NCBI RefSeq assembly: GCF_029201565.1
Contig: NZ_CP104002.1
Coordinates: 1,505,001 to 1,569,000, forward strand
From: Devosia sp. SD17-2
GTDB lineage: Bacteria > Pseudomonadota > Alphaproteobacteria > Rhizobiales > Devosiaceae
Length of the DNA stretch: 64,000 nucleotides
Direction: 5' to 3'
Below are positions 3-14,090 of the stretch, piece after piece (position 1 is the first letter of the stretch; every line of letters starts with the position of its first letter). The notes under the pieces were generated by a model that worked only from the letters and a program-made list of their open reading frames with translations, was not told the origin of the DNA and made no database searches. The position numbers and the translations under genes were made by a program.

Positions 3-647
3 ATCGAGAGCTGGGGGCAGGCGTGGGCCGAGCGCGGCGCGATGTCGGCGCGGTTCCGCAAGCCGGTTTACAATCACGATAAAATCACGGTCCATCTCGA
101 CGCGCTGGTGGATGACGGGGCATTCGTCCGTAGCCAGGCGCAAGTGGTGAACGGCGATGGAGATGTGGTGGCGACGGGCTGGGTCGCTCTGGCACATAAA
201 CCCGTTACCCCGCCTCAGCCGGAAAGCCTGACGCTGTTGCCCTCGCCTAAGACCCCGCCGCCCATCAAGGCCGGCGAGCTGCCGGTGGGTGCTCCGCTTC
301 ACAGTCGTGACCGGATACTCACGGCCGAAGATTTTGCCGGGTCTCTGGTGGCCTTTGCCGAAACCCATCCCATCTACGCCGACCCGGGGTTTGTGCATTC
401 GGGCATGCTGATGCGCACAGCCATGGGCGACGTGAATTCAGGCTGGAAATTTCCGGCCGCTATCGTGCTCGTCGAGACGGAAACCCAGCATTTTCGGCCG
501 GTCTACCCTGGGCAGTCGATCCGCACGGCCGGGACGATTGCCGAGATTTATGAGCGCAAGGGCAAGCACCACTTCGTTTCGGAGGAAGTGCTGCTGGCCG
601 ACGGGCAACCTGCCGCGCGGTTCCGGAGGACACAGATTTATGGATAG
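3..647 (+). CDS. MaoC-like hot-dog hydratase, 5'-partial
   Basis: Partial at the left window edge. The frame is open from base 3, and the residues before the first ATG at 42 (ESWGQAWAERGA) read smoothly into the rest, so the real start probably lies outside the window. The C-terminal half (about residues 100-200 counted from that ATG) has the hot-dog strand pattern of MaoC/FAS1-type dehydratases, including HFRPVYPGQSIRTAG, while the N-terminal half is less conserved. MaoC proteins hydrate or dehydrate acyl-CoA thioesters in the cytoplasm. The stop overlaps the start of the next MaoC gene by 8 bp, so the two products may form a heteromeric hydratase. Family assignment is fairly safe; the substrate is unknown. 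Confidence 0.7.
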   Translation: MESWGQAWAERGAMSARFRKPVYNHDKITVHLDALVDDGAFVRSQAQVVNGDGDVVATGWVALAHKPVTPPQPESLTLLPSPKTPPPIKAGELPVGAPLHSRDRILTAEDFAGSLVAFAETHPIYADPGFVHSGMLMRTAMGDVNSGWKFPAAIVLVETETQHFRPVYPGQSIRTAGTIAEIYERKGKHHFVSEEVLLADGQPAARFRRTQIYG

Positions 648-1083
648 CGGCTGGACACAATCGGTCAATGACCTCGTGGCCTTCCACGACGTGACGGTGA
701 CGGCAGACGATATTGCAGTCTTCGTTCGGCTGAGTGGCGACGATTATGAGGCCCATACCGATCCCGACATCATGGCCAAGACCAGCTTTGGCGGGATCAT
801 CGCCCATGGCGCCCTGTTGGTCGGCTACATGTCAGCGGCGGGCACCCGTGCGATCCGCCTGGCGCGCGAGCGCGGAAATGACTGCTCGCCGGTATCGCTC
901 GGCTATGAGGCAATGCGGTTCGTCGCGCCGGTCTATCCCGGTGACAGCCTGCGCGTGGCTTATCGCGTGAAGTCCATTGATGAGACCCGCCGGCGTTCCA
1001 CCGCAGTCATTGAAATCACCAACCAGAAAGACGCGGTGGTGGCGGTAGCAGACCACATCATGAAGTGGCTGAAAACAGAGTAG
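640..1083 (+). CDS. MaoC family (R)-specific enoyl-CoA hydratase-like protein
   Basis: A 147-residue single-hot-dog MaoC protein. The hydratase-2 type motif is visible at about residues 25-55: LSGDDYEAHTDPDIMA followed by FGGIIAHG, giving the expected Asp/His catalytic pair. The start at 640 overlaps the previous gene and is preceded by a good ribosome site (CGGAGGA, 624-630); longer open sequence upstream in this frame overlaps the coding frame of the previous gene and is not used. By family it adds water to, or removes it from, a CoA thioester. Its tight coupling to the preceding MaoC gene and a thioesterase downstream suggests a CoA-dependent degradation route. Confidence 0.85.
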   Translation: MDSGWTQSVNDLVAFHDVTVTADDIAVFVRLSGDDYEAHTDPDIMAKTSFGGIIAHGALLVGYMSAAGTRAIRLARERGNDCSPVSLGYEAMRFVAPVYPGDSLRVAYRVKSIDETRRRSTAVIEITNQKDAVVAVADHIMKWLKTE

Positions 1084-1131
1084 AATATACGATATATTGA
1101 CCCTTGCATGCGGATGCAAAGGATGCAAGGG
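1084..1131 (+). promoter_or_regulatory. Two adjacent inverted repeats between MaoC and thioesterase genes
   Basis: Immediately after the MaoC stop there is a perfect AT-rich palindrome, AATATA-CGA-TATATT (1084-1098). It is followed by a longer inverted repeat with 9-bp arms, CCCTTGCAT (1101-1109) and ATGCAAGGG (1123-1131). The second also contains a tandem 9-mer, GGATGCAAA/GGATGCAAG. There is no T-tract, so this is not a classic intrinsic terminator. The AT-rich palindrome has the size and symmetry of a GntR-type operator, but no regulator gene is in view. Function is inferred only. Confidence 0.4.
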
Positions 1132-1242
1132 TGGAGGCATTGGTAAGCAGGCCCGGTGCAGAAGAGGCCGCTGACTGACACGGGAGTAGTTCACTATGCT
1201 GGGGAACCGTCAGCGCGATTTCGCGCCACGGCTGCGGCTGTC

Positions 1243-1686
1243 ATGACAAAGCGTTTGCCGCCCGCCCAGCGCGATGAGTTCAGCTGGTTTGCCAGCATTA
1301 CGCTGCGCTGGAACGACATCGATATTTTCGGGCACGTCAATAATGCCCGCTATTACGAATTCTTCGACACGACAGTGGTCGGTTTCCTGCATGAGGCCGA
1401 TCTCGGATTCGGTACGGGCGGTGCCGCCATGGTGGTCGCCGAAAATGGCTGCCGCTTCCATCGCGAGGTCAAATTCACCGACAGCCTCGAGATGGGGCTG
1501 CGGGTCGAACATATCGGCACGTCATCCGTGCGCTACGGACTGGCCGCTTTCGTCAATGGCGAGAGCAGTGCAGCCGCCGACGGTCACTTCATCCATGTAT
1601 TCGTCGATCCGGCCAGCAAGCGTCCGGCACCCTTAGACCCCGCTGTGCGGAGCCATCTCGAAAGTATTCTGACACTCACGGCCTGA
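1243..1686 (+). CDS. Acyl-CoA thioesterase, 4HBT hot-dog family
   Basis: A 147-residue hot-dog thioesterase of the 4-hydroxybenzoyl-CoA thioesterase/YbgC type. The diagnostic segment GHVNNARYYEFFDT is present about 30 residues in, with the catalytic Asp-type turn before it (RWNDIDIFGHVNN). The start is taken at the ATG at 1243 (MTKRLPPAQRDEF); an in-frame start at 1156 would add 29 unconserved residues. The enzyme would hydrolyse an acyl-CoA to free acid in the cytoplasm. Its place after two hydratases and before an enolase-superfamily enzyme fits release of a product or recycling of CoA in one pathway. Confidence 0.8.
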   Translation: MTKRLPPAQRDEFSWFASITLRWNDIDIFGHVNNARYYEFFDTTVVGFLHEADLGFGTGGAAMVVAENGCRFHREVKFTDSLEMGLRVEHIGTSSVRYGLAAFVNGESSAAADGHFIHVFVDPASKRPAPLDPAVRSHLESILTLTA

Positions 1687-1699
1687 GGAGGGGCCGCCA

Positions 1700-2815
1700 A
1701 TGTCCAAAGCGTCCATTATCAAGTCAGTCGACGCCTTCCAGCTAGCCTGGCGGCCAGAGGATCCGCCGGGTCGGCGCAGCGCATTTGTGCGTGTGACCAC
1801 CGAGGAAGGTCTCGTGGGCTATGGCGAAGCTTCGCCCATGCACGGCGGCGAGCACTCGCTCTGGGTGCTGCGCGATGCGGCCGCTTCCCTAGTCGGTGCC
1901 GATGTGCTCGATCACTCGGTGATCTACGATCGGTTGCTGCACCGCTATGTCAAGCTCGGGCCTGAAGGTGCCGTGACAGGCGCGCTTGCAGCCCTCGACA
2001 TTGCGTTGTGGGACCTCAAGGGTAAGCTCTTCAACCTGCCGATCTACAAGCTGCTGGGCGGGGCCTGGCGGACGGAAGTGCCGTTCTATGCCTCGATCGG
2101 GGGCAATGCGAACCGAACCGTGGACGAAACGGTGCGTGTCGTCGAGCAGCGCTGGCTGGCGGAAAAGCCGGCCGCGATCAAGATCCGCTGGGACGGCGAC
2201 CGTACGCGTCAGGACTATGATATTCCCGGCGATATCGCCAAGGCCAAGGCCGTGCGCAAGCTCGTCGGCGACGACTACCCGCTCGCCTTCGACGCCAACA
2301 ATCAATATTCCGTCGGTGGCGCCATCCGCGTCGGCCGGGCGCTCGAGGAGCTGGGCTACATCTGGTTCGAAGAGCCGGTGCAGCACTATGACGTGCGCGC
2401 CATGGGCGAGGTTGCCCAGCGTCTCGACATCACGGTGTCGGCGGCCGAGCAGACCTATACGACCCAGGCGCTGGTCGACATCATCAATGCGGGCGTGCGC
2501 ATGGTGCAGCCCGACATCGTCAAGATGGGTGGCATCACCGGCCTGATGCAGTGCGCGGCAATTGCCTATGCGCATGGTGTCGAGCTGGTGCCGCACCAGA
2601 CCCAGCCGACGATCGGCCACATGGCCAATCTGCATGTGCTGGCCACCATCATGCACCTGACCAAGCCGGCCGAATTCGCCGACCCCGATGACCGCATGCA
2701 TCCCGCGTTCGTCAATCCACCAAAACCCGTCGACGGCAAGTTCCAGATTCCAGAAGGCCCGGGTCTCGGCCTGGAGCTGAACGAAGACGTGCTCGAGAAC
2801 AGACGCGTTCGCTAA
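1700..2815 (+). CDS. Mandelate racemase/muconate lactonizing enzyme family protein
   Basis: Enolase-superfamily enzyme of 371 residues, the usual family length. Metal ligands at beta-strand ends are visible: Asp198 (LAFDANNQ), Glu224 (IWFEEPVQ) and Glu250 (SAAEQTY). The mandelate-racemase-type base pair is also there: KIR at 161-163 on one face and Asp272 (QPDIVKMGG) with His299 (LVPHQT) on the other. Such enzymes abstract an alpha proton from a carboxylate and then racemise or dehydrate it, often sugar acids. A GGAGG-type ribosome site (AGGAGGGG) lies upstream. It is in the same operon as the ABC transporter and dehydrogenases, so it probably acts on the imported acid; the exact reaction cannot be read from sequence. 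Confidence 0.85.
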   Translation: MSKASIIKSVDAFQLAWRPEDPPGRRSAFVRVTTEEGLVGYGEASPMHGGEHSLWVLRDAAASLVGADVLDHSVIYDRLLHRYVKLGPEGAVTGALAALDIALWDLKGKLFNLPIYKLLGGAWRTEVPFYASIGGNANRTVDETVRVVEQRWLAEKPAAIKIRWDGDRTRQDYDIPGDIAKAKAVRKLVGDDYPLAFDANNQYSVGGAIRVGRALEELGYIWFEEPVQHYDVRAMGEVAQRLDITVSAAEQTYTTQALVDIINAGVRMVQPDIVKMGGITGLMQCAAIAYAHGVELVPHQTQPTIGHMANLHVLATIMHLTKPAEFADPDDRMHPAFVNPPKPVDGKFQIPEGPGLGLELNEDVLENRRVR

Positions 2816-2835
2816 GGCGCGCACCGGAGGACTAA

Positions 2836-4428
2836 ATGACTTTGAACCGTCGCAATTTCATGGAGCTGGCAGCAGCTTCGACGGCACTCACCGCAGTGGG
2901 CGTGACTGCGGCCAGCGCGCAGGACAATGATGTTATCCGCATCGGTATTGCCGCGAACAACCCGCGTCATTCGGATCCGAACCAGACGACGCAGGGTCCG
3001 GACAACTGGGCTGTCGAGCAGATGTACGAGCAGCTCGTGCGCCCTGATGACGGCAAGTTTGCGCTGGCGCCAGACGACTACAAGCCTGTGCTGGCCACCG
3101 AGTGGTCGGTTTCGGAAGACGCCAAGACCTGGACGTTCAAGCTGCGCGAGGGCGTGCAGTTCCATCGCGGCTATGGCGAGATGACCTCGGAGGACGTGGT
3201 CTTCACCTTCCTCAAGGCCAAGGAGTTCGGCACCGGCCGGGTGATCTTCGCCAATATCGAGGATGCGGTGGCCAATGGCCCTTATGAAGTGGTGATCACG
3301 CTCAAGCAGCCGGACGTCAATTTCCTCGGCACCACGGTGTTCTCGCTCAATGCGAACATCGTGTCCAAGAAGGCCTATGAGGAAATCGGGGTGGAGAAGT
3401 TCACCACCGACGCCGTGGGCACTGGTCCCTATGAGCTGGCCAAGTATGATGCCGAGAGCGGCACCTATCTGACACGCTTTGCCGATTACTGGGGCGAGCC
3501 GGCAAAGGTCGCCAATATCGAGTGTCTCTATATCGCCGACACCACGGCGCGCACGCTGGCGCTGGTTTCCGGCCAGGTCGACATGATCGAAGCCGTGCGT
3601 GCACCGGGCTGGATCGACAGCATCCTGCAGCGCGATCCGAGCATGAAGGTCGACATGACCGTGCCGGGTTCGTTCAACACGCTGCACGTCAATCTGACCC
3701 GCGCGCCGTTCGACAATATCCTCGTGCGCCGGGCGCTGATGCACGCAATCGACCGCAACCTCGTGGCAGAGGCGCTGGCGCCGATGGGCGGCGTGCTGGT
3801 CGGCCTGCAGCCGGACTTCTTCCCGCCAGGCCTCAAGACCGAGGACCTGCCCGAAGAGCTGCGCTACGAATACAATCCGGAAAAGTCGAAGGCCCTGCTG
3901 GCGGAAGCCGGCTTCCCCGACGGCGTCAGCTTCGATGCGCTCTGCAGCCAGCGCGAGGACTATTCCTCGACCATGCTGATTGTGCAGGAACTGATCCGTC
4001 CAGCCGGGTTCAACATGAACCTCATCATCGGCGATCACACGGCCTATCACGCCGACAACCGCTCGGACAAAAACACGCTGGCGATGCACGCGTCGAGCTA
4101 TCCGCCGATCCCGACGCAAATCTATATCCAGCAGCTTTATTCGAAGGCCGAGGTTAAGGCTGACGGTTCGGGTGGCGGCAATTACAGCCATTATGGCGTC
4201 GCCATGCCGGGTGTCGATGAACTGCTTGAGCAGGCTCTCGCCGCCACCAATTACGATACTTATCTCGACCTCTGCCGCCAGATCGAGCTGCAGGTTCTGC
4301 GTGACCTGCCGCTGATCGGCCTGTCGACCCTGAGCTACACCATGGTGCGCAATCCGCGTCTCGACCTCGGCTATGAGGTGGAGAGTGGCTATGCGCGCTG
4401 GAGGCTACACCGCGCCACCAAGGCGTAA
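2836..4428 (+). CDS. ABC transporter substrate-binding protein, family 5 (copy 1)
   Basis: A 530-residue periplasmic solute-binding protein of the DppA/OppA (SBP family 5) group. It begins with a Tat-type signal (NRRNFMELAAA, hydrophobic stretch, cleavage probably after ASA-Q near residue 29), which implies export of a folded protein. Family-5 features include LREGVQFHRGYGEMTSEDVVF and the region TGPYELAKYD. It binds peptides, opines, sugars or other ligands for the permeases encoded downstream. The next gene is a close paralogue with almost the same signal peptide and length, so this is a tandem duplication. Confidence 0.9.
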   Translation: MTLNRRNFMELAAASTALTAVGVTAASAQDNDVIRIGIAANNPRHSDPNQTTQGPDNWAVEQMYEQLVRPDDGKFALAPDDYKPVLATEWSVSEDAKTWTFKLREGVQFHRGYGEMTSEDVVFTFLKAKEFGTGRVIFANIEDAVANGPYEVVITLKQPDVNFLGTTVFSLNANIVSKKAYEEIGVEKFTTDAVGTGPYELAKYDAESGTYLTRFADYWGEPAKVANIECLYIADTTARTLALVSGQVDMIEAVRAPGWIDSILQRDPSMKVDMTVPGSFNTLHVNLTRAPFDNILVRRALMHAIDRNLVAEALAPMGGVLVGLQPDFFPPGLKTEDLPEELRYEYNPEKSKALLAEAGFPDGVSFDALCSQREDYSSTMLIVQELIRPAGFNMNLIIGDHTAYHADNRSDKNTLAMHASSYPPIPTQIYIQQLYSKAEVKADGSGGGNYSHYGVAMPGVDELLEQALAATNYDTYLDLCRQIELQVLRDLPLIGLSTLSYTMVRNPRLDLGYEVESGYARWRLHRATKA

Positions 4429-4435
4429 GTGCATG

Positions 4436-4466
4436 GGGGCGCCGGCGAGGGGCCGGCGTCCCTTTT
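4436..4466 (+). terminator. GC-rich hairpin with T-tract between the two binding-protein genes
   Basis: A strong stem built on GCCGGC (4441-4446) and GCCGGC (4452-4457), extended by flanking G and C runs and followed by TTTT at 4463-4466, sits 8 bp after the first binding-protein stop. It looks like a weak or attenuating terminator, which would let copy 1 be made in excess over the downstream transporter genes. Confidence 0.6.
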
Positions 4467-4488
4467 AAAATATGGGAGGAGGAAACCC

Positions 4489-6084
4489 ATGACTTTGAAC
4501 AGACGTAATTTCATGGAGCTGGCGGCGGCTACGACGGCGCTTACAGCTTTTGGCGTGAGCTCGGCACGGGCCCAGAACGCTGACACATTCCGCATGGGCA
4601 TCGCGGCCAACAACCCGCGCCATTCGGACCCCAATCTGACCACTCAGGGGTCGGATAACTGGGCGACCGAGCAGATGTATGAGCAGCTCGTGCGGCCCGA
4701 TGACGGGCGCTTCGCGCTGACGCAGGACGAATATCTGCCGACGCTGGCGACCGAGTGGACACAGTCGGACGACGCCAAGGTGTGGACGTTCAAGCTGCGC
4801 GAAGGCGTGCAGTTCCATCGCGGCTACGGAGAGATGACCTCGGAAGACGTGGTGTTCTCCTATGAGCGCGCCATTGCTGGCGGCACCAACAAGACCATTC
4901 TCTCCAATATCGAGAGCGTCGTGGCCAATGGCCCCTATGAGGTGACGATCACCCTCAAGCAGCCAGACGTGAACCTGCTGGGCACCTCGATCTTCAACAA
5001 CAATACCTCGATCATCTCCAAGAAGGCCTATGAGGAGATCGGCGCGGAAGCTTTTGCGACCGATGCCGTGGGCACCGGCCCTTATGAGCTGGTCGAGTTC
5101 AACCCCGAGTCCGGCACGAAGATGACGCGCCACGAGGGCTATTGGGGCGACAAGGCCAAGATCGCCAATGTCGAGTGCGTCTATATCGCCGACACCACGG
5201 CGCGCACGCTGGCGCTCCTTTCCGGCGAAGTTGACTGCATCGAGGCCGTGCGTGCTCCGGGCTGGATCGACTCCATGCTCCAGCGCGACCCGAACCTCAA
5301 GATCGACATGACGACGCCGGGCTCGTTCAACACGCTGCACATCAATCTGACGCGCGCGCCGTTCGATAACCTCCTGGTCCGCCAGGCGCTGATGCATGCA
5401 ATCGACCGCGAGGCCGTCGCTGCGGCCCTGGCTCCGATGGGCGGCACGATGAACGGGTTGCAGCCGGACTTCTTCCCGGCCGGCTTCAAGAAGGAAGAGC
5501 TGCCCGAAGAACTGCAGTACAACTATGACCCGGAAAAGTCCCGGGCACTGCTGGCCGAGGCTGGCTATCCCGACGGCATCAGCTTCAGCGCTCTCTGCAG
5601 CCAGCGCGAGGACTATTCCTCGACCATGCTGATCGTGCAGGAACTGATCCGTCCGGCCGGGTTCAACATGGACCTGCAGATCATCGACCATACCGCCTAT
5701 CACGCGGACAATCGCTCGGACAAAAACACCCTGGCGATGCACTCCTCGAGCTATCCGCCGATCCCGACGCAGATCTATTTCCAGCAGTTGGCATCGGCTT
5801 CTGAGGTGAAGTCCGATGGCACGGGTGGCGGCAATTACAGCCACTACGGCGTTGCCATGCCCGGCATCGACGACCTGCTGGCGCAGGCGCTCGTTGCTTC
5901 GGACTACGAGACTTATCTCGACCTCTGCAAGCAGATCGAGCTTCAGGTGCTGCGTGACCTGCCGCTGATCGGTCTGTCGACCCTGGGCTTCACGGCCGTG
6001 CGCCGGGACGAGGTCGACCTCGGATACGAAGTTGAAAGCGGTTATGCCCGCTGGCGCTTCCATCGCGCGACCAAGACGGTCTGA
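4489..6084 (+). CDS. ABC transporter substrate-binding protein, family 5 (copy 2)
   Basis: A 531-residue paralogue of the preceding binding protein, by eye identical over most of its length. It shares the Tat signal (NRRNFMELAAA) and long identical stretches such as LREGVQFHRGYGEMTSEDVV and SQREDYSSTMLIVQELIRPA. Differences cluster in the middle of the mature protein (for example YERAIAGGTNKTILSN against FLKAKEFGTGRVIFAN). The start at 4489 follows GGGAGGAGG; an in-frame start at 4429 would break the Tat signal geometry. The two copies probably feed the same permease, possibly with different ligand preferences. Confidence 0.9.
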   Translation: MTLNRRNFMELAAATTALTAFGVSSARAQNADTFRMGIAANNPRHSDPNLTTQGSDNWATEQMYEQLVRPDDGRFALTQDEYLPTLATEWTQSDDAKVWTFKLREGVQFHRGYGEMTSEDVVFSYERAIAGGTNKTILSNIESVVANGPYEVTITLKQPDVNLLGTSIFNNNTSIISKKAYEEIGAEAFATDAVGTGPYELVEFNPESGTKMTRHEGYWGDKAKIANVECVYIADTTARTLALLSGEVDCIEAVRAPGWIDSMLQRDPNLKIDMTTPGSFNTLHINLTRAPFDNLLVRQALMHAIDREAVAAALAPMGGTMNGLQPDFFPAGFKKEELPEELQYNYDPEKSRALLAEAGYPDGISFSALCSQREDYSSTMLIVQELIRPAGFNMDLQIIDHTAYHADNRSDKNTLAMHSSSYPPIPTQIYFQQLASASEVKSDGTGGGNYSHYGVAMPGIDDLLAQALVASDYETYLDLCKQIELQVLRDLPLIGLSTLGFTAVRRDEVDLGYEVESGYARWRFHRATKTV

Positions 6085-6095
6085 TCCAAACAAAT

Positions 6096-6121
6096 CCGGG
6101 CTCCCAGGAGCGGGAGCCCGG
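6096..6121 (+). other. Perfect 10-bp stem-loop after binding-protein copy 2
   Basis: CCGGGCTCCC (6096-6105), loop AGGAGC, and GGGAGCCCGG (6112-6121) form a perfect hairpin 11 bp after the stop and about 20 bp before the permease start. No T-run follows. Hairpins at this position in ABC operons commonly protect the binding-protein transcript from 3' decay, giving more binding protein than permease; that role is inferred here. Confidence 0.6.
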
Positions 6122-6140
6122 TCTCTCAAAGGCGGTGAAA

Positions 6141-7076
6141 ATGGCCAGATATCTGCTCTTACGCTTGGGTGATGCGATCCCCACCCTTTTCATGGTGCTG
6201 ACGCTGGTGTTCATCGCCATGCGCATCCTGCCCGGCGACCCCGCACTGGCGGCGCTCGGTGATGCGGCACTACCCGAGCAGCTGGCCGAATTCCGCGAGC
6301 GGATGGGGCTCAACGTCCCCCTCTGGCAGCAATATTTCAATTTTCTCGGCGGCGTGCTGACGCTCGATTTCGGTCGCTCGCTGCTGACCAATACGCCGGT
6401 GCTGCAGCTGATCGCGCAGAACCTGCCTTATACGATCGAACTGACCGTCGCCGCCATGCTGATGGGCATTGTCGCCGGCCTGCCGATGGGCGTGATGGCT
6501 GCGACCAACCGCAACAAAGCCCCGGACGGGGTGGTGCGGGTGTTCTCGCTGATCGGCTATGCCATTCCCGACTTTTTCCTCGGCGCGATCCTGCTTATCA
6601 CGTTCTCGCTCAATATGGGCTGGTTCCCGATCAATGGGGCAGGGTCCAACTTTGTCAGTCGGCTGCACCATCTGTTCCTGCCGGCGCTGACGCTGGCCTT
6701 CGTGAAAGCTGCCTTCCTCGGCCGCCTGACACGTACCAGCCTGCTCGAAGTTTTGGGCAAGGACTATGTGCGGACGGCGCGCGCCAAAGGCGCCAAAGAA
6801 AATCGAGTCATTTACCGGCACGGCCTGCGCAATGCGCTGTTGCCGATCACGACCGGGCTGGGGCTGAGCCTTCTCTCGACGTTGTCCGGTTCGGTGGCGG
6901 TGGAGCTGGTGTTCAACCGTCCCGGCATCGGGCGCCTGCTCATCGATGCGATCGCGCAGCGCGACTACGCCGTGATCCAGGGCGGGGTACTGGTGTTCGC
7001 CGGTTTCGTGGTGCTCATCAACCTCCTGATGGACCTTGTTTATGTTGTTGTCGATCCACGCGTGCGGGTGAGCTGA
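6141..7076 (+). CDS. Dipeptide-type ABC transporter permease, DppB-like
   Basis: Inner-membrane permease of 311 residues with about six membrane segments. It begins with the typical DppB start (ARYLLLRLGDAIPTLFMV) and has the cytoplasmic EAA-type loop around KDYVRTARAKGAKENRVIYR. The ATG at 6141 is preferred because the ribosome site AAAGGCGG (6128-6135) then has correct spacing; a GTG at 6135 lies inside that site. It pairs with the DppC-like permease that starts one base after its stop. Together with the two binding proteins and the fused ATPase they form one importer. Confidence 0.9.
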   Translation: MARYLLLRLGDAIPTLFMVLTLVFIAMRILPGDPALAALGDAALPEQLAEFRERMGLNVPLWQQYFNFLGGVLTLDFGRSLLTNTPVLQLIAQNLPYTIELTVAAMLMGIVAGLPMGVMAATNRNKAPDGVVRVFSLIGYAIPDFFLGAILLITFSLNMGWFPINGAGSNFVSRLHHLFLPALTLAFVKAAFLGRLTRTSLLEVLGKDYVRTARAKGAKENRVIYRHGLRNALLPITTGLGLSLLSTLSGSVAVELVFNRPGIGRLLIDAIAQRDYAVIQGGVLVFAGFVVLINLLMDLVYVVVDPRVRVS

Positions 7077-7077
7077 G

Positions 7078-7962
7078 ATGAGTGTCATTACCGAAGATAC
7101 CGTTCGCATCCCGCCGGCCGAACCTGGCTTTTTCAGCCAGCTCAGGAAGATCCTGTTCGGCCGCGTGGAGACGGCTTTCGCCACCTGCATGATTGGGGTG
7201 TTTATCCTCGTCGCGCTGTTTGCGCCTGTGCTGGCGCCCTATGATCCGCTGGCGCAGTCGGTTCTCAAGATCAACCGGCTGCCGAGTGCCGACAACTGGC
7301 TCGGTACCGACCAGTTCGGTCGCGACGTGCTGAGCCGGCTTATTTACGGTTCGCGCAACTCGCTGCTGTTCGGGTTCATCTCGCCAGTGCTGGCCGCGCT
7401 GTTCGGCACGACCCTCGGGGTCATCGCCGGCTATTTCGGCGGGGTCGTCGACCGCCTGATCTCCCGCGTCATCGACCTGTTGCTGGCCTTTCCGGAGTTG
7501 CTGCTGGCGATCCTGATCGCGGCTGTTCTGGGTGGCGGCTTCTGGAACATCATTGCGGTGATCACCGTGGCCTTCATCCCGGGTTTTGCCCGCGTGGCCC
7601 GGGCCCAGACGCTGTCGATCAAGCAGGAGCCCTATGTGGAGGCGGCGATCGCCACGGGTGTGCGCACCCCGATCATCATCATCCGCCACATCATTCCCAA
7701 TATCATGGCCCCAATCGTGGCGCTGATGACGCTGTGGGTGGCGTCGGCCATCCGCATCGAGGCTTCGCTGAGTTTCCTCGGTATCGGCACCCGGCCGCCC
7801 AATCCCAGCTGGGGCAACATCATCCGCGACGGGCTCAACAGCCTCTTCGGTTCGCCCTGGCCGATCATCGGCGCCGGTATTGCCATTACCCTGGTGGTGC
7901 TTTCGTTCAACCTTGTCGGCGACGCGATCCGCGATGCGCTCGACCCATCGACTGCACGCTAG
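7078..7962 (+). CDS. Dipeptide-type ABC transporter permease, DppC-like
   Basis: Second membrane subunit, 294 residues. It shows the OppC/DppC N-terminal layout (a cytoplasmic leader, one membrane segment, then GTDQFGRDVLSRLIYGSRNSL) followed by the BPD transport domain with the EAA-type loop SIKQEPYVEAAIATGVRTP. It begins directly after the DppB-like stop, so translation is probably coupled. It forms the heterodimeric channel with the previous product in the inner membrane. Confidence 0.9.
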   Translation: MSVITEDTVRIPPAEPGFFSQLRKILFGRVETAFATCMIGVFILVALFAPVLAPYDPLAQSVLKINRLPSADNWLGTDQFGRDVLSRLIYGSRNSLLFGFISPVLAALFGTTLGVIAGYFGGVVDRLISRVIDLLLAFPELLLAILIAAVLGGGFWNIIAVITVAFIPGFARVARAQTLSIKQEPYVEAAIATGVRTPIIIIRHIIPNIMAPIVALMTLWVASAIRIEASLSFLGIGTRPPNPSWGNIIRDGLNSLFGSPWPIIGAGIAITLVVLSFNLVGDAIRDALDPSTAR

Positions 7963-7971
7963 GAGATGGAC

Positions 7972-9840
7972 ATGAGCGCAATGGACAATACTGCAGAGCA
8001 GGCCGCGCCAAAAGCGGCCGCAGAGCCGGTCCTGTCGGTCCGTGATCTCAAGACCTCGTTCCTTACTCCGAAAGGCTGGGTGGAGATCGTCAAGGGGATC
8101 AGCTTCGACATTGCGGCGGAGGAAACTCTTGCCGTGGTGGGCGAGAGCGGGTCGGGCAAGTCGGTAACAGCGCTGAGCGTGATGCGGCTCCTCGACCACG
8201 AGATGAGCCGGGTCGAGGGCTCGGTGAAACTTGCCGGGCGTGAACTGCTCTCGCTCGGGCCCAATGAAATGCGCAATGTGCGGGGGCGGCAGATCGGCAT
8301 GATCTTCCAGGAGGCGATGACCAGCCTCAACCCGCTGCAGACCGTGGGCCAGCAGATCGCCGAAGTGCTGACCATCCACGGCCTCTATTCGGGCCAGGAG
8401 GCCTATAAGGAGGCCGAGCGACTGCTCGAGCGCGTGCGTATTCCCGGGGCGGCGTCGCGGCTCAAGGATTATCCGCATGCTCTCTCGGGCGGCATGCGCC
8501 AGCGCGTCATGATTGCCATGGCGCTGGCCTGCAAGCCCAAGCTTCTTATCGCCGACGAGCCGACGACGGCGCTCGACGTGACCATTCAGGCCCAGATCCT
8601 GCAGCTGATCAAGCAGCTGCAGAAGGAGGAGGGCATGGGCGTCCTGTTCATTACCCATGACATGGGTGTGGTGGCCGAGGTCGCCGACCGGACCGTGGTG
8701 ATGCTGCAGGGCAAGGCGGTTGAGTCCGACAAGACCGAGAACATCTTTGCGCATGCCCAGAACCCCTATACGCGGGCGCTGATCGCGGCGGTGCCGCGGC
8801 TCGGCGAAGGCAATAAGAAGGGGCCTCAGCACTTCCCCATTCTCGACCGGGCGACCGGTCTGGTGGTGACCGGCCGCGAGCGACCGGACACGGTCCAACA
8901 CACGGCCGAGCCGGTGCTGCGGGTGAAGAACCTCGTCAAGCGGTTCGACATTGCAGGTGGGCTGTTCAGCGGTCCGATCGGCCGGGTCCACGCTGTCGAA
9001 GATGTCAGCTTCGACCTCAAGGCGGGGGAGACCCTCTCGCTCGTGGGCGAGTCCGGGTGCGGAAAGTCGACCACGGGCCGGGCGGTGATGCGGCTGATCG
9101 AGCCACAGAGCGGCGAGATCAATCTGGGCGGCACCGATATCCGCGCGCTGGACAAGGAACGCATGCGCGACATGCGCCGGCATATCCAGATGATCTTCCA
9201 GGATCCCTATGCCAGCCTCAACCCGCGCATCAAGATCGGTGATGCCATTGCCGAGCCATTCCTGACCCACAAGCTGGGGACCAAGCAACAGGCGCGCGAC
9301 AAGGCCATGGACCTGCTAGAGCGGGTGGGGCTCAGCCCGGAAATGGCGGGACGCTATCCCTCACAGTTTTCCGGCGGTCAGCGGCAGCGCATCTGCATTG
9401 CCCGGGCGCTCTCGCTGGAACCCAAGGTGATCGTGGCGGACGAAAGCGTCTCGGCGCTCGACGTCTCGATCAAGGCCCAGGTCGTGAACCTGATGATGGA
9501 TCTGCAGGAACAGTTTGGCCTGTCTTATCTTTTCATCTCGCACGACATGGCGGTGGTGGAGCGCATCAGCCATCAGGTTGCGGTGATGTATCTCGGCGAG
9601 ATCGTGGAGCGGGGGCCGGTGGCATCCGTCTTCGGGAACCCGCAGCACCCCTATACAAAGCGCCTGATGGCGGCAGTGCCTGTGCCTGATCCGGCACGGC
9701 GAACCCAGGTGCGGCCCGTCAGCAATGACGAGATCAAGAGCCCGATCCGCAAGGTGGATTATGTGCTGCCAAAACGAGAGTACCGCGAAGTCTCGCCAGG
9801 CCATATCGTGCAGGTCTGGGGCGATGACTGGAAGATCTAG
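7972..9840 (+). CDS. ABC transporter ATPase with two fused DppD/DppF-type domains
   Basis: About 622 residues holding two nucleotide-binding domains in one chain, the GsiA/YejF arrangement. Domain 1 has Walker A GESGSGKS, signature LSGGMRQR and Walker [13 protein letters not shown]. Domain 2 has Walker [11 protein letters not shown], signature FSGGQRQR and Walker [13 protein letters not shown], where Ser replaces the usual Pro after DE. The oligopeptide C-terminal segment (NPYTRAL, HPYTKRL) follows each domain. The ATG at 7972 fits the AGGAG at 7961-7965; an ATG at 7966 would have no spacing. It energises the importer formed with the two preceding permeases. Confidence 0.92.
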
Positions 9841-9879
9841 GGGCGCGGTGACAATGAAGAAAAGAGAAGGACAGGTTTC

Positions 9880-10869
9880 ATGAGTTTTCAGGCATTGGTC
9901 ACCAGCAAGGATGAGGCGGGGAAGGTTTCTTCGCGCGTCGAGATGATCGGTGATGACCGCCTGCCCGAGGGCAATGTGACGGTCGATGTGGAATGGGCGG
10001 GGCTCAACTACAAGGACGGGCTGTGCCTGACCGGGGCTGGCGGGCTGGTGCGGGATTTTCCGCATGTGGCGGGCATCGACTTTGCCGGGACTGTCGCCGA
10101 GAGCGCGGACAGCCGCTACAAGGCGGGCGACAAGGTGCTGTTGACCGGCTGGCGCGTGGGCGAGGCTCATTGGGGCGGCTATGCGCAGCGGGCGCGGGTC
10201 AATGCCGACTGGCTGGTCCCGGTGCCGGAAAGCCTTTCGACGCGCGACACCATGGTGGCGGGCACGGCGGGCCTTACTGCAATGCTGGCGGTGGATCGGC
10301 TGGAAAAGCTGGGGCTGACGCCGGAAGCCGGCGAAGTGCTGGTGACGGGTGCGGCGGGTGGCGTAGGCTCGATTGCGCTCTCGCTGCTGGGCAAGCTCGG
10401 CTACACGGCGGTGGCGGTTTCCGGGCGGCCGGAACATGCCGAAATGCTCAAGGGGCTTGGCGCCAGCGAGATCATCGCGCGCGATGAGTTCATGGGGCAG
10501 CCGGACAAGCCGCTGGAATCGGCACGCTGGGCCGGTCTGATCGACAATGTCGGCGGCAAGGTTCTGGCCAAGGCGCTCAAGCAGATGAAGTACAACGGCA
10601 TCGCCACGGCGATCGGCAATGCCGGCGGTATCGGTCTTGATACAAATGTCCTGCCGTTCATCCTGCGCGGGGTGACGCTTGCGGGCATCGACAGCGTGAT
10701 GCAGCCCTATGCAAACCGCGTTCCGGCATGGAACCGGATTGCCGAGATATTTGACCTCGGAGCCTATGACGGCATGGTCAGCGAAATCGGGCTTGAGGCG
10801 CTGCCGGCTGCTGCCGACCAGATCCTCGCCGGGCAGGTGCGCGGGCGCACCATCGTCAAGCTGCGCTAG
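9880..10869 (+). CDS. Zn-independent MDR oxidoreductase, acrylyl-CoA reductase AcuI/YhdH type
   Basis: A 329-residue medium-chain dehydrogenase/reductase. It matches the YhdH/AcuI layout: an N-terminal GroES-like domain with WAGLNYKDGL, then a Rossmann domain with TGAAGGVGSIALSLL for NADPH, and an ending GRTIVKLR. AcuI reduces acryloyl-CoA to propionyl-CoA. The structural zinc cysteines of alcohol dehydrogenases are missing, as expected for this group. In this operon a double-bond reduction on a CoA ester would sit well with the MaoC hydratases, but the native substrate could be another enone or enoyl-CoA. The next gene starts 9 bp downstream. Confidence 0.8.
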   Translation: MSFQALVTSKDEAGKVSSRVEMIGDDRLPEGNVTVDVEWAGLNYKDGLCLTGAGGLVRDFPHVAGIDFAGTVAESADSRYKAGDKVLLTGWRVGEAHWGGYAQRARVNADWLVPVPESLSTRDTMVAGTAGLTAMLAVDRLEKLGLTPEAGEVLVTGAAGGVGSIALSLLGKLGYTAVAVSGRPEHAEMLKGLGASEIIARDEFMGQPDKPLESARWAGLIDNVGGKVLAKALKQMKYNGIATAIGNAGGIGLDTNVLPFILRGVTLAGIDSVMQPYANRVPAWNRIAEIFDLGAYDGMVSEIGLEALPAAADQILAGQVRGRTIVKLR

Positions 10870-10878
10870 GAGAACGCG

Positions 10879-11835
10879 ATGCCGGTCATGATCGCGCATA
10901 ATTATGATGAGCGGCTGGCTGGCAAAATTGCGGCCGTGCTGCCCGAGGGCGTGGATTTTCGCGCCCTCGGAGCGAATGCCGAGACGGGCTGGGAGGTATC
11001 GGCCGAGGCGGAAATCCTGCTGATCAACCAGAACAGCCCGGAAATCGGGCTGCATCGGGGGATGGTGAAGCCGGATGGCTGGCCTTTCAACCTCAAATGG
11101 GTGCAGTTGCGCTCGACCGGCATCGACAAATATCCGGACTGGATTTTCGAGGTGCCGCAGGTCTGTGTCACCCGTGGCGGCTATGCCGTGCCGATTTCGG
11201 AATATGTGCTGGCCGCGATGCTGGCGCAGGTGAAGCTCATTCCGGAGATCTGGGTGAGAGGGGCCGGGCAGTGGCAGCCCCGGCCCAGATTGGGCACGCT
11301 CAACGGTCAGACGCTGGGGATCATCGGCTTTGGCGAGATCGGCAAGGCGATTGCCGAAAAGGCCCAGACCTTTGGCATGGAGATCATCGGCACGCGCCGC
11401 TCGGGTGGGCCGAGCGGCATGGAAGGCGTCGAGATCGTTTCGCTGGGCGAGCTGATTTCGCGGTCGGACCATATTGTGGTGGCGACACCGCTGACCGAGG
11501 AGACGGCCGGCATGCTCAATGTCGAGACGCTTGCCGGGATCAAGGACGGCGCGCATCTGATCAATATCGGGCGCGGCCAGGTGATCACCGAAGACGGGCT
11601 CAGGGCCGCGCTCGATGGTAAGCTGGGGGCGGCGACGCTGGATGTGACCGTGCCTGAACCGCTGACGGATGGGCACTGGCTTTATAGCCACCCCAAGGTG
11701 CGGATCTCGCCTCATATTTCGGGCAGCTCGCCGCAGAGCGACGCCAATATCACCGCGTTTTTCCGGCGCAATCTCGATCGCTATCTGGCTGGTGAGCGGC
11801 TGGAAGGGCTAGTCGATCCGCTGGCGCGCTACTGA
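10879..11835 (+). CDS. D-isomer-specific 2-hydroxyacid dehydrogenase
   Basis: A 318-residue NAD(P)-dependent oxidoreductase of the formate/glycerate dehydrogenase group. The Rossmann motif is LGIIGFGEIGKAIAEKA (about residues 148-165). Catalytic residues are recognisable as the Arg in LINIGRGQVITEDG, the Glu in VPEPLTDG and the His in ISPHISGSSP. It interconverts a 2-oxoacid and a D-2-hydroxyacid. Its position between the AcuI-like reductase and the HisD-superfamily dehydrogenase suggests it oxidises or reduces an intermediate of the same pathway, perhaps the hydroxy-carboxylate made by the neighbouring dehydrogenase. Confidence 0.85.
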   Translation: MPVMIAHNYDERLAGKIAAVLPEGVDFRALGANAETGWEVSAEAEILLINQNSPEIGLHRGMVKPDGWPFNLKWVQLRSTGIDKYPDWIFEVPQVCVTRGGYAVPISEYVLAAMLAQVKLIPEIWVRGAGQWQPRPRLGTLNGQTLGIIGFGEIGKAIAEKAQTFGMEIIGTRRSGGPSGMEGVEIVSLGELISRSDHIVVATPLTEETAGMLNVETLAGIKDGAHLINIGRGQVITEDGLRAALDGKLGAATLDVTVPEPLTDGHWLYSHPKVRISPHISGSSPQSDANITAFFRRNLDRYLAGERLEGLVDPLARY

Positions 11836-11899
11836 ATTTTACGTTTGACTGACTGCCGGCCCTGGGCCGGAAACAGCTCTGATTGCTGGAGGATATCTT

Positions 11900-13204
11900 A
11901 TGGCCATTTGGCTCAAGCGCGGTAAGGATGTCGAGGAGCGGGCAGAGGCGGACCGGCAGGTGCGCGCCACGGTTGAAGGCATTCTCGCCGATATCGAAAA
12001 GCGCGGCGATGCGGCGATCCGCGAGCTCTCGGTCAAATTCGATAAATGGGACCGGACCGATTTCCGGCTGAGCCAGGCCGAGATCGATGACTGCATTGCG
12101 CAGCTGACCGATGAGGAAGTGCGCGACATCGAGTTTGCGCAGATCCAGGTGCGCAATTTTGCGCAGAAGCAGCGCGAGACCATGCTCGATCTCGAGGTGG
12201 AGACGTTGCCGGGGGTGATCCTGGGGCACAAGCATGTGCCGATCAGTGCGGTGGGCTGCTATGTGCCGGGCGGCAAATATCCGCTGCTGGCCTCGGCGCA
12301 TATGTCGGTGCTGACGGCCAAGGTGGCGGGTTGTCCGCGCGTGATCACCTGTGCGCCGCCGTTCAATGGCAAGCCGGCGCCAGCGATTGTTGCGGCGCAG
12401 GCGATGGCGGGGGCCGACGAGATCTATGTGCTGGGCGGGATCCAGGCGATTGGCGCCATGGCAATCGGCACCGAGAGCATTGACCCAGTCGACATGCTGG
12501 TGGGGCCGGGCAATGCCTTTGTGGCCGAAGCCAAGCGGCAGCTTTATGGGCGCGTGGGGATTGATCTTTTTGCCGGGCCGACCGAGACGCTGGTGATTGC
12601 CGACGAGACGGTGGACGGCGAGCTCTGCGCGACGGACCTTCTGGGGCAGGCCGAGCATGGGCCGACCTCGCCGGCGATCCTGCTCACAAATTCCGAAAAG
12701 CTGGCGCGGGAAACGATGGCGGAAATCGAGCGGCTGCTGGAAATCCTGCCAACGGCTGATATCGCGCGAAAGTCGTGGGCGGATTTCGGCGAGGTGATCG
12801 TCTGCGAGAGCTATGAGGAAATGCTGGCTGAAGCCGACCGCATTGCTTCCGAACATGTGCAGGTGATGACCGAGAGGGACATGTGGTTCCGGGACAATCT
12901 GCGCAACTTTGGGGCGTTGTTCCTCGGCCCGCGCACCAATGTGGCCTATGGCGACAAGGTGATCGGCACCAACCATACGCTGCCGACCATGAAGGCGGCG
13001 CGCTATACGGGCGGGTTGTGGGTTGGAAAGTTTTTGAAGACCTGCACCTGGCAGACGGTCAACAGTGACGAAGCCTCGGCCATGGTAGGCGAATATGGCT
13101 CGCGCCTATCCATGCTGGAGGGGTTTGTGGGGCATGCCGAGCAGGCCAATATCCGGGTGCGGCGCTATGGCGGGCGCAATGTGCCCTATGGCGGCAAGGC
13201 CTGA
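11900..13204 (+). CDS. Zinc HisD-superfamily dehydrogenase, HpsN-like
   Basis: A 434-residue protein of the histidinol dehydrogenase superfamily. The zinc and catalytic residues line up with those of HisD: Gln250 and His253 (GQAEHG), Glu318-His319 (SEHVQVMT), Asp352 (YGDKVIG) and His412 (GFVGHAEQ). The segment [20 protein letters not shown] differs from the usual biosynthetic HisD form and resembles catabolic relatives such as HpsN, which oxidises 2,3-dihydroxypropane-1-sulfonate to sulfolactate. The catabolic operon context and absence of other his genes also argue against histidine synthesis. The true substrate is unknown. A short GC hairpin (11856-11870) and a GGAGG ribosome site precede it. 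Confidence 0.8.
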
Positions 13205-13265
13205 GAGGAGGGAGGCGGCCGTGAAATCCCTATGCCGCTTCGTATGCTGGCGTCTCCACGCCGCA

Positions 13266-13296
13266 AAAGCGTTTCCACTTTGGACGGAAACGCTTT
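13266..13296. repeat. Palindromic 11-bp-arm repeat between the HpsN-like and GlcG-like genes
   Basis: AAAGCGTTTCC (13266-13276) and GGAAACGCTTT (13286-13296) are perfect inverted arms around a 9-base loop. No T-tract follows, so it is not a standard terminator. It has the look of a dispersed REP-like palindrome or an mRNA-processing hairpin inside the operon. Downstream, TGTATAATTGTATTACA (13324-13340 region) is a second, imperfect TGTA/TACA symmetry just ahead of the next gene's ribosome site. Confidence 0.55.
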
Positions 13297-13350
13297 AGGA
13301 GCAGTCCTGAACCTTCGTGCGTTTGTATAATTGTATTACAGGAGACTTTC

Positions 13351-13773
13351 ATGCTGACTCTCAAGCGGATTGACGTGCAGGACGCACAGGTGCTGCTCCA
13401 GGGTGCGCGGGACAAGGCGCGGGAGATCGGCGTGCCAATGTGCATCGCCATCACGGATGAATCGGGCAATCTCATCGCTTTCGAGCGCATGGATGGCGGC
13501 AAGATCACCTCGATCACCATCGCCATCGACAAGGCCTTCACGGCTGCCGGTGCGCGCAAGGCGACGGGTGACTACGGCACGTCCAGCCAGCCCGGTTCGC
13601 CCGCCTATGGCATCAATTCGGCGATTAACGGCCGCCTGATGGTGGTTGCCGGTGGCCTTCCGCTCAGCGTTGATGGCGAAGTCGTCGGCGGTATTGGCGT
13701 GAGCTCGGGCACGCCAGCGCAGGACACGGAAGTCGCCCAAGCCGGCATCGATGCGTTTCTTGCGGGTCTCTGA
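13351..13773 (+). CDS. GlcG/HbpS family protein (DUF336)
   Basis: A 140-residue protein with the GlcG/HbpS fold signature: GVPMCIAITDESGNLIAFER near residues 25-45 and a C-terminal glycine-rich GGIGVSSGTPAQD. GlcG is encoded with glycolate-utilisation genes and HbpS binds haem outside the cell; the family also appears in many catabolic operons with no assigned role. No signal peptide is visible, so it is probably cytoplasmic. The ribosome site AGGAGA lies 7 bases upstream. It is the last gene before the strong terminator at 13822. Confidence 0.85.
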   Translation: MLTLKRIDVQDAQVLLQGARDKAREIGVPMCIAITDESGNLIAFERMDGGKITSITIAIDKAFTAAGARKATGDYGTSSQPGSPAYGINSAINGRLMVVAGGLPLSVDGEVVGGIGVSSGTPAQDTEVAQAGIDAFLAGL

Positions 13774-13821: not shown

Positions 13822-13849
13822 GGGGCAAGGCGCAAGCCTTGCCCCTTTT
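13822..13849 (+). terminator. Intrinsic terminator of the catabolic operon
   Basis: GGGGCAAGGC (13822-13831), tetraloop GCAA, GCCTTGCCCC (13836-13845) and TTTT form a textbook Rho-independent terminator about 50 bp after the GlcG-like stop. The 240 bases after it, to 14090, are unusually AT-rich for this window and hold no recognisable gene, only the likely ribosome site of the pseudogene at 14091. Confidence 0.9.
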
Positions 13850-14090
13850 GTCCGAAGGGTCAAATTGGGCCCAATGTGTATTTAGGCTGCACTGGAAATT
13901 TCTGTTGGACGCTTTGAACGTTGGGCGGCTGGCTACCGCCGGTGCGGAGCATTTTTGCCTAAACCTTTGGTATCGAACATTTTTTATTGATAAAATATAT
14001 ACTGTTTTTGCTGCACTAAATGGCGACCAGCAGACCAGTGAGCGTCTTTGCCCCGAAGCCGTTCTGGCCCTGCCGGGAAGGTGGGACCTC

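Follow-up and report, generated by a model that had tools for sequence, protein, structure and literature searches.

At the start of a 64-kb stretch of the single-contig, 4.23-Mb genome of Devosia sp. SD17-2 (bases 1505001–1569000 of NZ_CP104002.1; the whole stretch analysed is called the window here) lies a co-directional gene cluster that we read, tentatively and with a little less than even confidence, as a LacI-linked operon that imports and degrades a sugar-acid-like hydroxycarboxylate, which may stem from a plant glycoside. A first-pass annotation had described it as a thirteen-gene operon, and the 13 open reading frames (ORFs) that it named are all present on the + strand between window positions 3 and 13773, with 12 of them passing the Pfam cut-off of the named family (MaoC1 is the exception). 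The count of 13 stands, but the membership shifts at both ends: the first gene, for a fused coenzyme A (CoA)-transferase of 787 amino acids (CaiB2; genome 1502475–1504838), was hidden by the window edge and ends 2 bp before the start of MaoC1. CaiB2 and HisD are therefore the outer genes of the operon, with the final gene, GlcG, a doubtful addition. Because this hidden first gene is a CoA-transferase, the earlier proposal of a route through CoA esters is strengthened. From MR/MLE to HisD the intergenic gaps are only 1 to 64 bp. Upstream, the order is GntR (− strand), Ldh2, Fe-ADH, an SSADH-like aldehyde dehydrogenase, LacI (− strand, divergent from the operon) and CaiB2. Chance can be set aside as an origin of the cluster, whose gene order is found again in other genomes. 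The features inside the window, with the basis of each assignment, are as follows.

3–647, +: MaoC1, double-hotdog hydratase-like protein, 3' part in the window (profile match, model of the L005 homologue)
640–1083, +: MaoC2, single-hotdog MaoC hydratase (profile match, Asp/His pair)
1156–1686, +: 4HBT-type thioesterase, alternative start 1243 possible (profile match)
1700–2815, +: MR/MLE enolase-superfamily enzyme with K-x-R and Asp272-His299, predicted one-base dehydratase (profile, residues)
2836–4428, +: family-5 solute-binding protein 1 (profile match)
4489–6084, +: family-5 solute-binding protein 2, listed ORF begins at 4429 (profile match)
6135–7076, +: OppB/DppB-type permease (profile match)
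7078–7962, +: OppC/DppC-type permease (profile match)
7966–9840, +: fused OppD-OppF-type ATPase (profile match)
9880–10869, +: AcuI/YhdH-family enoyl-CoA reductase (profile match)
10879–11835, +: D-2-hydroxyacid dehydrogenase family protein (profile match)
11900–13204, +: HisD-family Zn dehydrogenase, HpsN-like, carrying GKYPL where HpsN has GRY[A/S]H (profile, alignment)
13351–13773, +: GlcG/HbpS-like protein, possibly a separate transcript (profile match)
13822–13851, +: intrinsic terminator, 10-bp stem then TTTTGT (sequence and folding)

The MR/MLE enzyme (MR hereafter) has the Pfam N- and C-terminal domains and the D/E/E metal ligands of its superfamily, and its catalytic residues, reported as complete in the first-pass annotation, are invariant in all 78 homologues (K161, R163, D198, E224, E250, D272, H299 and E325). 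Arg163 occupies the position of the second Lys of the mandelate racemase KxK motif. Since Arg in place of this Lys leaves one evident base, dehydration is favoured over racemization, and the residues, set beside the mechanisms of the family, suggest a one-base dehydratase using His299-Asp272. Acid-sugar dehydratases (talarate/galactarate, arabinonate, galactonate) and the structures 3n4e/4dwd share with it the fold, the three metal ligands and the His-Asp dyad, but the dehydratases carry KxK where the operon's enzyme carries K-x-R, and the named sugar-acid dehydratase equivalogs of NCBIfam all fall far below cut-off (the best at 167.5 of 500 bits). The solved structure 3n4e is close (E 2e-160); for neither 3n4e nor 4dwd did we find a function in the open-licence literature searched. 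The locus ties the enolase-superfamily clade to which this solved structure (3n4e/4dwd) belongs to a defined set of partners, which makes its function testable.

Related loci were sought by scanning genome contigs with a profile built from 12 aligned MR proteins. The scan gave 340 stretches and 290 relatives; 80 of these relatives were retained and read with up to 10 kb on either side, and the best MR segment of one (L005) is 100% identical to that of the window. In a tree of 78 of these loci (L039 and L043 dropped; quick search, LG+G4), 49 MR proteins form one clade (SH-aLRT 99), and CaiB2 adjoins MR in 36 of the 49 and in none of the 29 outside it, while MaoC1, found in 35 loci, always stands alongside CaiB2. 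This CoA clade has His at MR residue 52 (window 1853–1855) in 49 of 49 members, where the 29 others have Ala (28) or Ser (one). Residue 52, possibly a specificity position, is the sole MR column that separates the two clades at a 90% threshold, and it does so perfectly. Other arrangements include MR with the importer alone and Ldh2-FeADH-MR without CaiB2 (six of 78 loci, five of them with SSADH), to which a FAH-family gene is added on three plasmid loci read. The Ldh2-FeADH-SSADH-MR-ABC clusters at L087, L151 and L152 are carried by Agrobacterium/Rhizobium plasmids of conjugative type, among which one bears the name of a Ti plasmid.

The sugar-acid class is supported because genes resembling those for glycoside hydrolases, and sugar-acid-type enzymes, recur beside MR. 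With the glycoside-hydrolase-like families identified on one representative per cluster (as were the hydantoinases mentioned below), a GH138-like gene was found in nine of the 80 loci, five of which carry CaiB2 (L012, L019, L020, L035 and L045), and a GHL6/GH42M gene in three. The GH138-like protein is some 860 amino acids long; its L020 copy (L020:16832–19417) matches no Pfam family at 0.001 and gives a weak sequence match to GH138 (E 0.059), with which the five best Foldseek matches of its model, all GH138, agree. The related loci are sporadic and their record titles mostly alphaproteobacterial; a few others (betaproteobacterial, one cyanobacterial metagenome-assembled genome and one Mycobacterium) may be misassigned.

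Of 121 closely related genomes searched for CaiB2 and MR, eight had a match to the former and 19 to the latter, all within the window's genus, and the seven with a full-length CaiB2 are exactly the seven whose MR is at least 89% identical, the two genes lying less than 2 kb apart in each. The order from CaiB2 to HisD is kept in five of the seven. No HisD occurs in the stretches read of the other two (G027 and G023), where the HisD-like gene sits in another conserved cluster (L137 and L131). This second cluster, seen in other genomes of the genus (L129–L143), holds a sugar-type ABC importer, an amidase, an SDR, a LacI and an RraA-like protein, neighbours that recur in 10 to 12 of the 15 stretches read (families assigned on representatives). 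It also holds a 374-amino-acid protein with no NCBIfam match, and a second HisD-family gene (47–49% identity) in 10 of the 15 stretches. Of 41 sampled genomes of the genus, 25 carry the HisD-like protein and 12 carry MR, so HisD is kept outside the operon too. The eighth CaiB2 genome (G285, locus L161) has Ldh2, Fe-ADH, SSADH, a partial CaiB2, AcuI, 2HADH and HisD, and no MR, MaoC or importer within the 18 kb read; it looks like a relic of the operon left by internal deletion.

The CoA branch is the unusual part of the locus. CaiB2 is a class III CoA-transferase, with the CoA_transf_3 domain in two stretches and a catalytic Asp, and consists of two fused halves that are 24% identical to each other. 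Asp550, in the second half, is kept in all 29 aligned rows, and the residue aligned with it in benzylsuccinate CoA-transferase is an Asp too, while the matching first-half position is Ala in 25 rows and Ser in four; only the second half keeps the catalytic Asp, and we propose that it is the active one. The second half best matches chain B of PDB 9fn0, the (R)-2-benzylsuccinate CoA-transferase BbsEF. That enzyme likewise has two class III units, but as separate subunits, whereas CaiB2 is fused in one chain, lacks the first-half Asp and differs in gene context; paired adjacent CaiB genes do occur in related loci (for example L049 and L053).

The full MaoC1 gene (genome 1504841–1505647, 268 amino acids, its ORF beginning 160 bp before the window) passes FAS1_DH_region (29.4 bits, cut-off 22) and misses MaoC_dehydratas by 0.4 bits (26.6, cut-off 27). 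The predicted model of a 99% identical homologue (L005) has a double-hotdog MaoC fold (pLDDT 93) and matches MaoC dehydratases, including the mesaconyl-CoA hydratase MeaC (8hgn). MaoC1 is only 12% identical to MeaC, and in it His26 and Tyr21 are invariant and no canonical Asp/His pair was recognized. MaoC2 has such a pair (D68/H73, numbered from ORF start 538) in seven of seven rows; it most likely begins at 640 rather than 538, and the two MaoC genes, already noted as overlapping, then overlap by 8 bp. The AcuI-like reductase exceeds the cut-off of subfamily TIGR02823, shared with the acrylyl-CoA reductase AcuI, but not that of the AcuI equivalog NF051456 (402.7 of 440 bits).

These likenesses, of CaiB2 to benzylsuccinate CoA-transferase and of MaoC1 to mesaconyl-CoA hydratase, would also suit an aromatic or branched-acid CoA pathway of the BbsEF/mesaconate type in which MR serves as a cycloisomerase or racemase. 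We consider this unlikely, as the missing second Lys of KxK makes two-base racemization improbable, the other MR loci point to sugars, and the operon's families include no acyl-CoA dehydrogenase, thiolase or lyase.

The importer raises a different alternative. Its two binding proteins are tandem duplicates (77.7% identity), and the best PDB match of the second is 6tfq (7e-59, 203 bits), presumably the mannopinic acid-binding MoaA of Agrobacterium, and no paper among the literature matches listed names 6TFQ; the agrocinopine-binding AccA ranks lower among its PDB matches. Together with the presence of some related loci on a Ti plasmid and other Agrobacterium/Rhizobium plasmids, and of hydantoinase and amidohydrolase genes beside a few MR relatives, this could mean that the compound imported is mannityl-opine-like and that the operon degrades opine-like or sugar-amino acid conjugates. 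However, the similarity to 6tfq is moderate, and the operon's families include neither an oxidative deaminase nor an opine oxidase nor an enzyme that would split a conjugate; we regard this explanation as quite improbable.

The HisD-like protein scores 455 bits with PF00815 (cut-off 27) and 439 bits with TIGR00069 (cut-off 243.8), and is the lowest-scoring of three in the genome. As a better HisD exists (560 bits, at 3730925–3732139), a role of the operon copy in histidine biosynthesis is not supported; the third family member lies at 880588–881820 (L091). The first-pass annotation had allowed for a hydroxylated carboxylate or sulfonate as substrate, and in organosulfonate catabolism this protein would be HpsN, the 3-dehydrogenase of 2,3-dihydroxypropane-1-sulfonate (DHPS, HOCH2-CHOH-CH2-SO3), in an operon degrading a C3 sulfonate. 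HpsN is indeed its closest solved relative (3e-111; the best HisD reaches 3e-78), and the upstream Ldh2 and Fe-ADH score best with L-sulfolactate dehydrogenase and sulfoacetaldehyde reductase, respectively, both below cut-off. However, neither MR/MLE nor MaoC nor a CoA-transferase is known to take part in the DHPS routes described, and a scan that covered genes in the operon and upstream of it, but not the remaining genome, revealed no sulfonate lyase. HpsN, the R-DHPS 3-dehydrogenase, bears a motif G-R-Y-A/S-H whose His126, called HpsN-specific by its authors, binds the sulfonate (PMC11382572). The operon's protein does not have this motif, carrying Leu at His126 (GKYPL), and in addition it differs from HpsN in gene context. 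GGKYPL is found in 119 and GGKYPM in one of 120 close relatives among the matches listed, and the five aligned rows of the operon HisD have Leu or Met at this site, never His. The HpsN residues Glu318, His319, Asp352 and Lys353 are kept in all five, and the Zn ligands are kept too; Lys353, which touches the sulfonate in HpsN (PMC11382572), counts for a sulfonate. Taken together, the carboxylate half of the earlier claim fits and the sulfonate half, with the HpsN His missing, is disfavoured to the point that we think it very improbable. The JGI name 'sulfopropanediol 3-dehydrogenase' is attached to 29 of these 120 relatives among the matches listed. That such proteins do not show the HpsN signature as published is of consequence when sulfonate degraders are counted. 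Our guess is that the substrate is a carboxylate analogue of DHPS, such as 3,4-dihydroxybutyrate or a 2-keto-3-deoxypentonate; among the matches listed in the open-licence literature there was no paper on HisD-like paralogues or on a HisD acting on polyols or sugar acids.

Two further ideas were not taken up. A DddD-type route for dimethylsulphoniopropionate (CoA-transferase, Fe-ADH and aldehyde dehydrogenase, compare dddBCD) was not adopted, with the peptide-type importer and MR/MLE against it, and an itaconate-type route is not supported, the operon containing no HpcH lyase and the genome's two PF03328 genes lying elsewhere.

Returning to the sugar-acid-like hydroxycarboxylate, it is from the genes observed, their order, their catalytic residues and their conserved co-occurrence that we infer a substrate class, an order of reactions, individual activities and control by LacI. 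The compound would be imported by the peptide-type ABC importer with its two duplicated binding proteins and dehydrated by MR, through its one base (His299-Asp272), to a 3-deoxy-2-keto acid. Oxidation of a terminal CH2OH beside CHOH to a carboxylate could then fall to the HisD-like enzyme (four electrons, a single enzyme) or, alternatively, to the neighbouring pair of Fe-ADH and SSADH-like enzyme, with 2-hydroxyacid dehydrogenases adjusting the keto/hydroxy state. The resulting dicarboxylate would be converted to its CoA ester by the fused CaiB2. MaoC1/MaoC2 may then hydrate or dehydrate this ester, the AcuI-like enzyme reduce it and the thioesterase free it from CoA. The parts come from known families; in the open-licence literature searched we found neither their combination nor a characterized equivalent of the enzyme set, and nothing there contradicts the earlier statement that no described pathway has exactly these enzymes. 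Possible but doubtful is the broader suggestion that this is a CoA-ester route for a sugar acid outside the known phosphorylative and non-phosphorylative pathways, with the HisD-like protein a third, carboxylate-specific branch of HisD/HpsN. In such a route, once MR has dehydrated the sugar acid and its terminal alcohol is oxidized, the BbsEF-like fused transferase and the mesaconyl-CoA-hydratase-like enzyme would pass the dicarboxylate to central metabolism as a CoA ester.

Several points weigh against this scheme. We know of no description of CoA activation of a sugar acid, and no full balanced route using every enzyme could be written. What speaks most against one substrate common to all is residue 52 together with the optional genes: the split at residue 52 may mean that the two kinds of locus differ in substrate, with Ldh2/Fe-ADH/SSADH perhaps only a neighbour, and AcuI occurs in 15, 4HBT in 10, MaoC2 in nine and HisD in six of the 78 loci. 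Independent-pair tests on the tree gave three supported pairs, too few for significance, and the locus is rare in the class (CaiB2 in one and MR in two of 240 genomes, too few to test co-occurrence). Hydantoinase/amidohydrolase genes, which do not suggest a sugar acid, stand beside MR in five of the 80 loci, and the GH138-like model is poor (mean pLDDT 54.4, TM-scores 0.23–0.29). Finally, the fold matches of MaoC1 include thioesterases, and its hydratase activity is only predicted.

At the downstream end, HisD and GlcG are separated by 146 bp containing a stem-loop and a TATAAT box of their own, and GlcG may be a separate transcription unit. It is present in two of the 80 related loci (L038 and L080), in neither directly after HisD, although in G297, a relative within the genus, it sits in the same position. 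The terminator placed at the cluster's end by the first-pass annotation was not listed by a consensus terminator scan of the window, but the sequence bears it out: a hairpin at 13822–13845 with a 10-bp stem and GCAA loop, followed by TTTTGT, has a folding z of −4.33.

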